In this document: positions 7,290 through 11,990 of the stretch, piece after piece
Layout: the number at the start of each line of letters is the position of its first letter
Numbering within the stretch: position 1 is the first letter of the stretch
Assembly (NCBI GenBank): GCA_913009285.1
Contig: CAJVYE010000003.1
Coordinates: 1-16,384 of the forward strand
Direction of reading: 5' to 3'
DNA: 16,384 nucleotides
Source: an uncultured Nitrospirota bacterium
GTDB taxonomy: Bacteria; Nitrospinota; Nitrospinia; SZUA-224
Translations under genes and position numbers: made by a program
The notes under the pieces: generated by a model
What the model was told of the DNA's origin: nothing
Databases searched by the model: none
The model's input: the letters and a program-made list of their open reading frames with translations, nothing else

Positions 7290-9854
7290 ATGCAATTTAG
7301 ATCAAAAATCAGAAAGGTATTATTTCAGGTGGGTGTTGTGTGTTTATCTATTGTGTTTATGTCCGTTTTGAACGTCAAGAGTGTTAATGCCGCTGATGCT
7401 ATTCAATGGCCTGTACAGCGCGTTATTGTAGATAAGGCATGGTTGGATAACGAGTACGGAGGCGATGTTACTAAAGCCAATGTGCTCTTTATTGAAGTAA
7501 CTTCAGATGAGGCAGATATGTTACATCCATATGGGTTTAGTGGGAGGCATATAAAAACCATACCTTCAGAATATTCACTGCATACCCCATGGCCTACCAA
7601 CCTTTCTAACCCTCCTGTGACGCTTGAGACTCCCAAGTTTGGATTGGATACAATGAAAAACAGTGCAGATTTGTCTTGTCCTGACTATCCTAATGGGAAT
7701 TGTATTAATAAAGATCCTGGTATGCTAGGCCTACTCGATCCCCAAGTTATTGTTGCTGCTGAATATTTTAAAAAGATGGGCATTAGTCATGGAGATCCCA
7801 GTGCCAAACACAATGATATCCCAATCGTTATTTATACAGACCGCTTACCTCATGATTATGCTTTTATAGCATTGCTTTACTGGCTTCTGGAGTATTATGG
7901 TTATCCTGAGGATAAATTACATGTGCTGGATGGTGGATTACAGAGGTGGGCGGCTGAAGACGGCGCTACAGTGACCGGTCCAGGTGATCAAATAGACCCG
8001 AATGATTACAATTTTATCCCAGATTTAAAACCGGAGTTGCTTGGAGAGAAGACCTTTATACAAGCGGTAACAAAGGATGTAATTAATGGCATTCTAATAG
8101 ATATACGTTCACCACGTGATGAAAATCCATATCCCATAGAGCCTGGACGAAAAAGTTGGCCTGCATATCCGTGGTGGGACCCTGCATATGGCTATCACAT
8201 CCCGAAAGACGGATGGTATGACTGGCATTTTTCATGGGAAGAACAATCTGGTCCTGATCCTGAGAATTTTGGAAAAAAATTGGTATGGGAAGAATGGAAG
8301 AATAAAGGGGTATTAGAAGCACATATCTCATCAGTTTTTAATGAAGCTAATAAGACGATTGATAAGAACAATGATCCTATTATTTTCTATTGCTCATGTG
8401 AAGGGACAGCCTCGGCATCTGGTTATCTGACCTTTAAGGCTCTCGGATATAAAAAAGTTCGTAATTATCAGGGAGGACTCGATGATTGGGTCTCTTCTTC
8501 AATGGATGATTATATGGGTAATCTGACAACCCAAGGGAAGAAGATGAGTGATGGTACAATAGTGGTAGATAATTCATGGGCTAACAGGAGTGGGAACTGG
8601 ATGGTAGTAGGTGATGACATAAATGGAGTTGACCCGTTTCCTGATTTAGATGGGGGAAAGTATCGCTTTTATCGAATAATCAGGGAAGAGGGCGCCTTTC
8701 TAAATTTTGATTACCTCAAAAGTAATGGCAAAGCCTCGATCACATGGGTTCCTGATATACTTGTTAATGGCAGTTATGAGGTGTATGTATGGTTAAATAA
8801 GGATGTTTCTTCTTTGGAACATACCTATGTGATAAATTATAATGGTGGTCAGGATACAACAGCTAAAATCAAACCTTCTACCACTGGCTGGCATTTATTA
8901 GCCGGAGAAAAAGCGCAAACCTTTACCGAGTGTGGTGGTGATAAATCTTATTCCTTTTATTCCTTTGAGGAAGGGAGGAGTGGAAGTGTAATGTTAAGTG
9001 CCAGTGGTGCGGATTTTTATGCTGATGCTGTTATGTTTTATAAATTATCAGACTTTGGGACAGATTCAGATTCAGATGGGATACCTGATTACAAAGAAGA
9101 GGAGATAGGCTCTGATCCAAATTCAAATGATACAGATGGTGATGGTATATTAGATAGTATTGAAGCAGGTGATCTGTGTGAACCACCTAAAGATTCCGAT
9201 AAAGATGGTATCTTTGATATCTTCGAATATGATAAGTCGGCCAATAATGCAGCTATCATAGAGTGTATAATATTGGATGATCTTGGACTGTCGGGCTTTG
9301 CAGGTGAAATACTTAAGATAGAGACCGACACAGGAACACTATCCTTTACTCAAGCCGCTACTCAGCCAACGCCATTATCAAAGGGGCCTGATTTTGACTC
9401 TGATGATGATTATACTTATGAGTACCCTCTGGGACTCTATTCGTTTAATGTAGATGGTGCTTCCACCGCTACCGTTACAATAACCCTTCCTGAGGGTATA
9501 GTTATCCCAACTGATACCATCTATCGTAAGGCGAAGACGAATGATAAGGGGGATATTTTCTATACAACCTTTCAGGGTGTTGAGGGTCTGAATGATGGAG
9601 ACAATATATTTACACTCACACTAATAGATGGTGGTGATGGTGATGCTGATGGTGAAGTTAATGATAAAATAGTCGATCCTGGTGGCCCTGCTATTCGTAT
9701 CCCTAAGCCTAAAGAGAGAACCATAGGTGGTGTTGGAGACTGCTTTATCACTACAGCGGGTTATTATGGTTTACATTGGGGAATATTGGCTGTAACCTTG
9801 CTGTTGGCTCTAGTGGTCTTATCCGTACTCCTTAGCCAGAGGAGACGATCATGA
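7290..9854 (+). CDS. Exported tandem-rhodanese protein (Cys-x-Cys form) with golvesin-like, thrombospondin-3 and C-terminal anchor domains
   Basis: The 854-residue protein starts with a signal peptide (likely cut after SVNA, residue 34). Two rhodanese-like domains follow. The first (about 44-225) lacks a catalytic Cys (VIYTDRLPHDY) but keeps LHVLDGGLQRW. The second (about 250-403) has FYCSCEGTAS, with Cys368 and Cys370, and ends NYQGGLDDW. The loop is atypical: Gly lies four residues after the first Cys, where sulfurtransferases have C-x-x-G. Cys130 and Cys138 form another pair shared with the next gene. Next come a golvesin C-terminal-like domain (about 424-585), calcium-type DxDxDG thrombospondin-3 repeats (591-648), a segment resembling the choice-of-anchor U domain (about 655-803), and a C-terminal CFI motif, membrane helix and RRR tail. 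A perfect AAGGAGG lies seven bases before the ATG. It probably handles sulfur or selenium at the cell surface; substrate unknown. Confidence 0.9.
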   Translation: MQFRSKIRKVLFQVGVVCLSIVFMSVLNVKSVNAADAIQWPVQRVIVDKAWLDNEYGGDVTKANVLFIEVTSDEADMLHPYGFSGRHIKTIPSEYSLHTPWPTNLSNPPVTLETPKFGLDTMKNSADLSCPDYPNGNCINKDPGMLGLLDPQVIVAAEYFKKMGISHGDPSAKHNDIPIVIYTDRLPHDYAFIALLYWLLEYYGYPEDKLHVLDGGLQRWAAEDGATVTGPGDQIDPNDYNFIPDLKPELLGEKTFIQAVTKDVINGILIDIRSPRDENPYPIEPGRKSWPAYPWWDPAYGYHIPKDGWYDWHFSWEEQSGPDPENFGKKLVWEEWKNKGVLEAHISSVFNEANKTIDKNNDPIIFYCSCEGTASASGYLTFKALGYKKVRNYQGGLDDWVSSSMDDYMGNLTTQGKKMSDGTIVVDNSWANRSGNWMVVGDDINGVDPFPDLDGGKYRFYRIIREEGAFLNFDYLKSNGKASITWVPDILVNGSYEVYVWLNKDVSSLEHTYVINYNGGQDTTAKIKPSTTGWHLLAGEKAQTFTECGGDKSYSFYSFEEGRSGSVMLSASGADFYADAVMFYKLSDFGTDSDSDGIPDYKEEEIGSDPNSNDTDGDGILDSIEAGDLCEPPKDSDKDGIFDIFEYDKSANNAAIIECIILDDLGLSGFAGEILKIETDTGTLSFTQAATQPTPLSKGPDFDSDDDYTYEYPLGLYSFNVDGASTATVTITLPEGIVIPTDTIYRKAKTNDKGDIFYTTFQGVEGLNDGDNIFTLTLIDGGDGDADGEVNDKIVDPGGPAIRIPKPKERTIGGVGDCFITTAGYYGLHWGILAVTLLLALVVLSVLLSQRRRS

Positions 9855-10202: not shown

Positions 10203-11990
10203 ATGGGGCTTAATGCAAAGATCAAGAAGTTCTTATTGCAGACAGCAATAGTAGGAATATCTATTATTCTGGTATCATTTATAAGCGTCAGGAATGTAAC
10301 TTGCTTTGAGATAAAGGACTGGATCATTGTTGATAAGGCATGGCTTGATAAGAATCTGGGTGGGAATGATAAAGACATTACTACACAGGGAACAGAAGAC
10401 CCTTCAAATCCAACAGTGCTCTTTATAGAAGTGGCCCCTGATAGTGAGTATACTGGATGGAACAGTATTGAAAATAAATGGGGTACCTTTAAAGGATATG
10501 CATCTGAACATATCGGCAAAAAAAAGGGTGGCAAGATATTGTGGGAAGCTATACACACTGAATGGCCTAGTGCTGTTGATAGAGATACAAGCAAATGGGC
10601 CCCCGGTATTCAGCCGAATCATTATCCTAATTTTGTATTAGATACAATGAAATCGAGTGCAGATGTATCATGCCTGACTACTGAGAATAAGTGGTGTACT
10701 CGAAAGGCCCCTGGTATGTTGGGGCTACTCGATCCTATTACAGCAACAAATGAGTTAAAGAAATTTGGTGTCAGTCATGGTGTGTCTTCTGCAAAAAACA
10801 ATGATATCCATATAGTGATCTATGCAGAACTTCTTCATCATGATTATCTTTATGCAACTACCCTTTACTGGCTTTTTGATTTTTACGGCTATCCCTCTAA
10901 GAATCTGCATATACTAAACGGTGGTAAACAGAAGTGGAAGAATGATGGCGGGCCTGTAGTCTCTGGTAAAGGGCCAACAATAAATCCGGCTGATTATAGA
11001 TTTATTCCAAAACTAAGGCCTACGATATTAGCAGACAAGACCTTGATACGTGCTGTAACAAAAGGCGTAATGAAGGGGATAATACTTGATGTACGTGGTG
11101 ATCGTGCCAATTGTAAGGATCCATTAGAACCTGGAGGGATCCCAGGGTGGCCTTCTTCACCAAATTGGTGGGACCCTATGCAGGGGTATCACATTCCAAA
11201 TGACGAGCCTTTTTCTTGGGATGATTCACTAGAGAAGAATGCTGAGGGTAAGTGTATAGATTATAAAGGTGAGTGTGTGTGGAAGTATGGATTAGAAGCA
11301 GGGCTAAAGAAGACCTTTGAAGCAAGATCGATTGGAAAGGACGATCTTATTATCCTCTATTGATCATGAGAGGGTGAGACCTCGTCACATAGTTATGTGA
11401 CATTAAAGGCACTTGGATATACAAATGTTAGGAATTATTGGGGCGGGACAGAGGATTGGGTCTTTTCCTCCATGAATGATATGATGGCTAATCTCCTTTC
11501 AAACCACAAGTGGACAGATGGAACAATCGTGGTTGACAATGTATGGGCTAACAGGAGTGGCAAATGGTCAGTAATAGGGGATGATATAACAAGAGATCCA
11601 CATGGTCATGATTTTTCAACAAAGATTGTTTCAGGTACCTTTCTAAACTATAATTACCTCCTTAGTAATAGTAAGGCCTCGATCTCATGGGTTCCAGAGA
11701 TCCCTGTAACTGGCAATTACGAGGTATATGTATGGTTAAACAATAAGGTTTCTTCCAAGAATCATACCTATACGGTTAATTACAGAGGTAGTAAAGATAC
11801 TATTACCGTCACCCCCAAGCATATAGGTTGGCATTTGTTGGCAGGGAAGAAGGCAAAAAAAGGAACAATATCCAAAAAGACCTATCAATATTATCGGTTT
11901 AATAAGGGGATGAAGGGTAGTATAATACTGAACACAGATACAAAAAATATATATGCTGATGCAGTAATGTTTTATAGGGTGCCTGAATAA
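10203..11990 (+). CDS. Predicted selenoprotein: exported tandem-rhodanese protein with a Sec-x-Sec active loop
   Basis: Read through two in-frame TGA codons (11361-11363 and 11367-11369), this is a 595-residue paralogue of the preceding gene. It has an N-terminal signal segment (about 1-34), a degenerate first rhodanese domain (about 40-255, with the shared Cys157/Cys165 pair), a second rhodanese domain (about 275-422) and a golvesin-like domain (about 440-593) ending YADAVMFYRVPE. It lacks the thrombospondin repeats and membrane anchor of the paralogue. The TGAs are codons 387 and 389 and align with Cys368 and Cys370 next door (LY-U-S-U-EGETSS against FY-C-S-C-EGTASA). Homology continues in frame for about 200 residues to TAA. 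A stem-loop follows the second TGA. GGAGG lies six bases before the ATG. Sec insertion is inferred, not shown. Conventional calling gives two fragments, 10203-11363 and 11397-11990. Confidence 0.85.
11384..11401 (+). promoter_or_regulatory. Candidate bacterial SECIS stem-loop
   Basis: GTCACATA-GT-TATGTGAC is a perfect 8-bp inverted repeat inside the coding frame, beginning 14 bases after the second TGA and 20 after the first. In RNA the likely form is a 6-7 bp stem with a small loop containing GU (AGUU or UAGUUA). The UGA-to-loop distance is about 22 bases for the second UGA and 28 for the first, within the 16-37 range used for bacterial SECIS elements. The equivalent region of the Cys paralogue (about 8414-8431) has no such stem. 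A smaller hairpin (11370-11383, GAGG/CCTC) lies just before it. Confidence 0.7.

Follow-up and report, generated by a model that had tools for sequence, protein, structure and literature searches.

Paired in-frame UGA codons predict a double-selenocysteine tandem rhodanese family in Nitrospinota

Described rhodanese selenoproteins and the UxU locus

A 2026 inventory (PMC13188914) comprises 119 prokaryotic selenoprotein families, and the five rhodanese forms given in its Table 1 are UxxS (form 1), UxxG (forms 2 and 4), CxU (form 3) and UxxxxU (form 5, TsoB), none of them UxU. Forms 1, 2, 4 and 5 share with the protein described here a rhodanese domain with selenocysteine (Sec), but none of them has the U-x-U arrangement in that table; TsoB also has two Sec, but these stand four residues apart, and the protein is named there as rhodanese/DsbD fusion-like. 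Form 3 is represented by the model NF041203 (rhodanese_LYCAU, one Sec), which gave the best NCBIfam match of the UxU protein (28.9 bits, residues 374–421) and resembles it in the rhodanese domain and in a C-x-[C/U] loop whose second position is Sec. However, this score lies far below the cut-off of 115 bits, NF041203 has Cys where the UxU family has its first Sec, and the model is short (126 positions) compared with an exported tandem domain plus a golvesin part. ExtH (NF040901) of a selenite/tellurite reduction cluster, also rhodanese-like, was matched weakly (26.9 bits, below the cut-off of 200), and no porin or cytochrome cluster was seen by eye beside the UxU gene. The tandem rhodanese sequence and, by a fold search from a weak model, also the fold resemble those of the Thermus-type rhodanese 1uar and of mycobacterial sulfurtransferases, whereas the solved tandem rhodaneses have Cys instead of Sec, a loop one residue shorter (three alignments) and, in these alignments, nothing matching the golvesin part.

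By text search, the string UxU was absent from the searchable text of PMC13188914 and PMC9312934; it occurs in PMC11818150, where the text retrieved holds no rhodanese. Passages of PMC8318568, PMC5877670, PMC12013277 and PMC1088965 were covered as well. Among the matches listed from the open-licence literature, no title or opening of an abstract described such a family, which within this scope agrees with the original prediction that the protein looks undescribed or rare, and no paper treating Nitrospinota together with selenocysteine was found in that literature.

By reading UGA as a residue, a gene of 595 codons is obtained in the window, i.e. the whole 16,384-nt stretch of DNA analysed here (Table 1). 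TGA at codons 387 and 389 are its only in-frame stops and the frame stays open from there to a TAA; in the adjacent paralogue the same two columns are occupied by TGC at codon 368 (position 8391) and by TGT at codon 370. The gene caller reported a 386-aa protein and then a 197-aa ORF starting at GTG 11397. The two in-frame TGAs with an open frame behind them, their coincidence with two Cys codons of the paralogue and the splitting of the gene by standard annotation had all been put forward in the original prediction, and all were recovered. Genuine termination, yielding an exported 386-aa protein and a separate 3′ product from the downstream GTG, could draw on that in-frame GTG and on similar ones in relatives; however, the rhodanese domain would then be truncated in the middle of its active loop, translation of the downstream ORF would begin within the same domain, and the presence of two UGAs at exact Cys columns would be left unexplained, making this reading very improbable.

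Table 1. Positions of the features discussed (window coordinates, except for the last row)
Feature	Position	Strand	Basis or remark
UxU rhodanese gene	10203..11990	+	595 aa, both in-frame UGAs read as Sec; TAA stop
N-terminal hydrophobic export signal	10203..10304	+	by eye
First rhodanese-like unit, core, ~residues 190-262	10770..10990	+	profile alignment to solved tandem rhodaneses; borders approximate
Second rhodanese unit, residues 370-420, active loop	11310..11462	+	PF00581, 38.3 bits (cut-off 22.2)
First predicted Sec codon UGA, residue 387	11361..11363	+	aligns with conserved loop Cys of solved rhodaneses
Second predicted Sec codon UGA, residue 389	11367..11369	+	
Putative bacterial SECIS	11370..11401	+	4-bp hairpin 11370-11383, then 7-bp hairpin 11384-11401
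Golvesin C-terminal domain, residues 488-591	11664..11975	+	PF25275, 35.9 bits (cut-off 31.6)
Cys/Cys paralogue, 854 aa	7290..9854	+	loop YCSCEG, without hairpin, TGA stop
Distant single-UGA rhodanese, G001 C26	L059:2872-4131	-	loop VYUQAGVRSS

Recurrence of the UGA pair in related loci

A six-frame search for the family in 100 genomes gave matches in 27, with high scores confined to two members of one genus, G000 (the window's genome) and G001; the best match in the remaining 25 reached 46.1 bits, and none of the matches listed there had an internal stop. Nine close homologous loci of G000 and G001 cover the active loop, eight of which carry the TGA pair (C3, C216 and C117 in G000; C96a, C96b, C79, C83 and C170 in G001), and the ninth, the window paralogue, has Cys/Cys. 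Mixed C/U or U/C loops were absent among the nine, so that the residues at both positions, which the original prediction had proposed to compare among homologues, are either Sec/Sec or Cys/Cys as encoded. The loop is spelled YUSUEG at seven UxU loci and YUTUEG at one, with TGA in all 16 codons of the two columns. The 4251 codons compared hold no further stop, counted from the start codon chosen for each locus and, in C216, up to an adapter-like tail that has another TGA. Decaying pseudogenes, with the UGAs as disabling mutations, would be in keeping with the splitting of the gene by gene callers and with the frequency of dead copies in multicopy families; however, the identical two TGAs in 8/8 UxU loci, the lack of any other stop and the conservation across divergent copies of the codons past the UGAs render decay exceedingly improbable, in agreement with the earlier argument that random decay would not strike both Cys codons and nothing else.

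At C96b, C83, C216 and C117 the contig runs out close to the loop or a short way past it, in C83 at 12 codons past the second TGA. The contig ends of C83 and C96b share an overlap of exactly 87 nt, and the identical 87 nt are also present in C79; judged from these sequences, C83 and C96b probably represent a single gene that the assembly split at a repeat, giving about seven UxU genes rather than eight, namely three in the 58.9%-complete window bin and about four in G001. The 87-nt stretch, which spans the UxU site and coincides with two contig ends, is read by us as the outcome of a recent duplication, or of gene conversion between copies. In their N-terminal parts, the UxU proteins are 41–79% identical to the window protein. 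Two contig ends carry apparent artefacts: L052 (C216) ends in LQIGRAHV, which we take to be adapter-like, and the first window ORF (2-73) begins FFKQKTAYEIKECDWSSDVCSSDL, presumably a translated Illumina adapter; the window contig end looks contaminated, and the start of the MotB-like ORF there looks not to be real. A 3′ family fragment lacking the loop was also observed in G000 (C127, L058), matching residues 493–518 and 540–595 and adjoining a multihaem-cytochrome-like ORF (by eye); it may be the part that C216 or C117 lacks at its end. In G001, a LarE-like ATP-dependent sulfur transferase gene (by eye, L061:3649-4464) follows a UxU gene.

A pattern search for the TGA pair in 77 genomes of the phylum produced ten matches in four genomes, eight of them the known loci, versus one match of a reversed control pattern; the other two, L101 (G047) and L102 (G032), were rejected as chance, their frames showing no family resemblance by eye. 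Among viral contigs, a pattern search gave 27 matches, none of which was confirmed. G001 is the MAG SZUA-224 ('Nitrospirae bacterium SZUA-224'), assigned to Nitrospinota class UBA9942 and of hydrothermal vent origin (PMC10839748), and the presence of the UGA pair in this separately assembled genome argues against a base-calling error. From a further Nitrospinota MAG, represented by protein records, P0010 (ACC630_00860) has as its last residue the Tyr that precedes the first UGA column, and P0015 (ACC630_00865) constitutes a 3′ half, its contig being equal in size to that of P0010; P0011, likewise a protein record, ends at the same place as P0010, before the first UGA column. The family was observed in one narrow lineage.

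The Cys/Cys paralogue next door is 45% identical to the UxU gene over 621 alignment columns, and has a choice-of-anchor U domain (NF041766 at window 9414-9695, 62.1 bits, cut-off 32) and weak TSP3 repeats. Orthology of this paralogue with G001 C96b was initially hinted at, since in each case a closely related UxU gene follows directly downstream and the two have a long C-terminal part in common. The midpoint-rooted tree gave it no support, grouping the paralogue on a long branch with the window gene and C96a (83/87), and the flanking genes differ; given this placement and these flanks, we claim neither orthology nor a direction of the Sec/Cys change.

The putative SECIS and the selenocysteine machinery

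All four components proposed as a check by the original prediction were detected in the window bin, i.e. selA (532.6 bits), selB (374.8 bits), selD (393.8 bits) and tRNA-Sec (67.3 bits, anticodon UCA), with selA, selB and tRNA-Sec together on contig C19. The selD gene (G000 C78, L057:1635) is itself a selenoprotein gene with the motif GAGUACK. In G001, selB (374.4 bits) adjoins tRNA-Sec (67.9 bits). G002 of the same genus (83% complete) yielded neither selB nor tRNA-Sec over the cut-off (best 138 and 40.1 bits, respectively) and no UxU family member in the six-frame search, the Sec trait being either lost or missing from the bin; co-occurrence of family and machinery is accordingly a comparison of three genomes only. 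A genome-wide reading of UGA as Cys, Trp or Gly might be suspected from the rarity of TGA stops in the window (one of 11 genes) and from the lack of a detected release factor 2 in the 58.9%-complete bin, whose sole match to that model stayed under the cut-off at 289.1 bits. Nevertheless, the other ten window genes checked have no in-frame TGA and use TGG, the Cys paralogue terminates in TGA, G001 has a release factor 2 over the cut-off (522.2 bits), and tRNA-Sec and SelB are present, all of which reduce reassignment to a virtually negligible probability.

The sequence right after the second UGA is GAGG-6nt-CCUC, followed by GUCACAU-AGUU-AUGUGAC, with the apical loop AGUU at 11391-11394; at all eight UxU loci this loop starts 27 nt after the first UGA and 21 nt after the second. 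The bacterial SECIS model of PMC13188914 (Fig. 2 legend) specifies a distance of 16-37 nt from the UGA, a loop of 3-9 nt with G in the first two positions, a stem of 4-16 bp and an energy of ≤ -7.5 kcal/mol, and its geometry was found for both UGAs at 8/8 loci (loop of 4 nt, G second, stem of 5-7 bp). Since some allowed stem-loop also follows 344 of the 672 TGA trinucleotides in the window, geometry alone is weak evidence and conservation carries the case; a stem-loop at -6.8 kcal/mol or better was found at 5 of 670 other TGA sites. Folding of the 46 nt downstream (37 nt in C83) gave -12.7 to -14.9 kcal/mol at all eight loci, while the apical hairpin alone reached -6.8 kcal/mol; the value of -7.5 is passed by the downstream stretch as a whole and not by this hairpin, and the PMC13188914 passage does not say to which of the two it applies. 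At C216, C117 and C170, a G-A mismatch reduces the seven-pair stem to five clean pairs (-2.2 kcal/mol alone), and in the RNAfold structure the base of the stem pairs differently, around a bulge. The same stretch of the Cys paralogue folds at -9.3 kcal/mol into another shape, with no qualifying hairpin at the equivalent place.

The window element folded only modestly better than its shuffled versions (z -1.7 to -2.6, with 4 to 12 in 200 of these folding equally well), and sliding the pairing by 1-3 columns lowered the paired cells from 93.9% to 25.8-65.2%. No covariation was found in the stem across the eight loci, no pair having changed on both sides and the stem being nearly invariant; from the first UGA on, 35 of 46 columns are invariant over these loci (six distinct rows). 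Codon identity at conserved residues amounted to 181/217 in the 13 codons after the second UGA versus 1622/2873 elsewhere, ranking this stretch first of 363 windows. With C83 and C96b left out, the values were 89/112 versus 1086/1946 and the rank was 8 of 391, the seven windows above it having 26-58 comparisons each versus 84. Between the Cys paralogue and the UxU set, codon agreement in this stretch was about equal to that elsewhere (31/51 versus 845/1489). The hairpin after the second UGA is designated a putative bacterial SECIS, a sequence-based assignment.

A further reading is that only one UGA takes Sec efficiently, the other being read by another tRNA or often ending the chain. The single hairpin must indeed work at two distances (27 and 21 nt), and Sec insertion competes with termination, as described for SECISBP2-dependent eukaryotic decoding (PMC9599142); but the paralogue has Cys in each of the two columns and 8/8 UxU loci have TGA in each, with no mixtures among the nine, and we regard a single efficient insertion as unlikely. 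In G001, a distant rhodanese has a single UGA (C26), at the first position (the loop Cys) and with Ala near the second; its hairpin has a different 6-bp stem, with AGUU again as the loop, 18 nt past the UGA. This gene adjoins one for a golvesin-like protein (by eye).

The UxU rhodaneses are very probably a real double-Sec family of exported proteins with predicted Sec. We are highly confident that the best explanation is an exported tandem rhodanese with two Sec in the active loop of its second domain (Y-U-S-U-E-G), in which, as we infer, SelB and tRNA-Sec would decode both UGAs; the most economical arrangement would be one SECIS hairpin, directly after the second UGA, that serves both codons.

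Protein architecture and proposed function

The family profile matched solved tandem rhodaneses (1uar, E 4e-22), and residue 387 was aligned on the conserved YC of 1uar, 8k55 and 3aax, whose loop Cys we take to be the catalytic Cys of rhodaneses. The active loop of rhodaneses has six residues, and that of the UxU protein is one residue longer than in these three structures; it may resemble Cdc25/arsenate-reductase loops. The loop of the first rhodanese-like unit lacks Cys and Sec (by eye), and at the C-terminus the predicted golvesin-type domain scored over the gathering cut-off of PF25275. In the related members C216, C117 and C170, a lipobox-like FAGC was seen by eye. The AlphaFold model was poor (mean pLDDT 50.3), too weak for loop geometry, and a Foldseek search from it placed sulfurtransferases on top and, below them, sugar-binding beta-sandwich proteins and toxin components sharing the general fold only. 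The neighbours in the window, named by reading as GatB, ABC transporter ATPases, SecA and an M23 peptidase, seem to point to no pathway.

Outside the cytoplasm, Sec387 would act as the nucleophile and form Se-S with sulfane sulfur or a related chalcogen, which Sec389 would then resolve via a diselenide or selenenyl-sulfide cycle, while the golvesin domain may perhaps hold the protein at the cell surface. From its fold class, we tentatively propose that the UxU protein may be an extracytoplasmic sulfur (or selenium) transferase or reductase with a redox pair, a possibility that we hold at somewhat less than even. Class UBA9942 has been credited with sulfur-oxidation genes (PMC10839748), which fits the proposed function and proves nothing.

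U-x-U would represent an additional class among rhodanese selenoproteins, in the phylum Nitrospinota, and current records obscure it by filing its halves as separate unnamed or hypothetical proteins. The gene offers a natural test of decoding where a single bacterial SECIS would have to serve two UGAs separated by one codon, and the adjoining Cys/Cys paralogue provides a natural control. On balance, we favour the view that one hairpin drives two Sec insertions (at 27 and 21 nt, SelB tolerating the 6-nt shift) to give an active-loop diselenide U-x-U, and that the expanded exported family would make selenium part of the lineage's extracytoplasmic sulfur/selenium chemistry.
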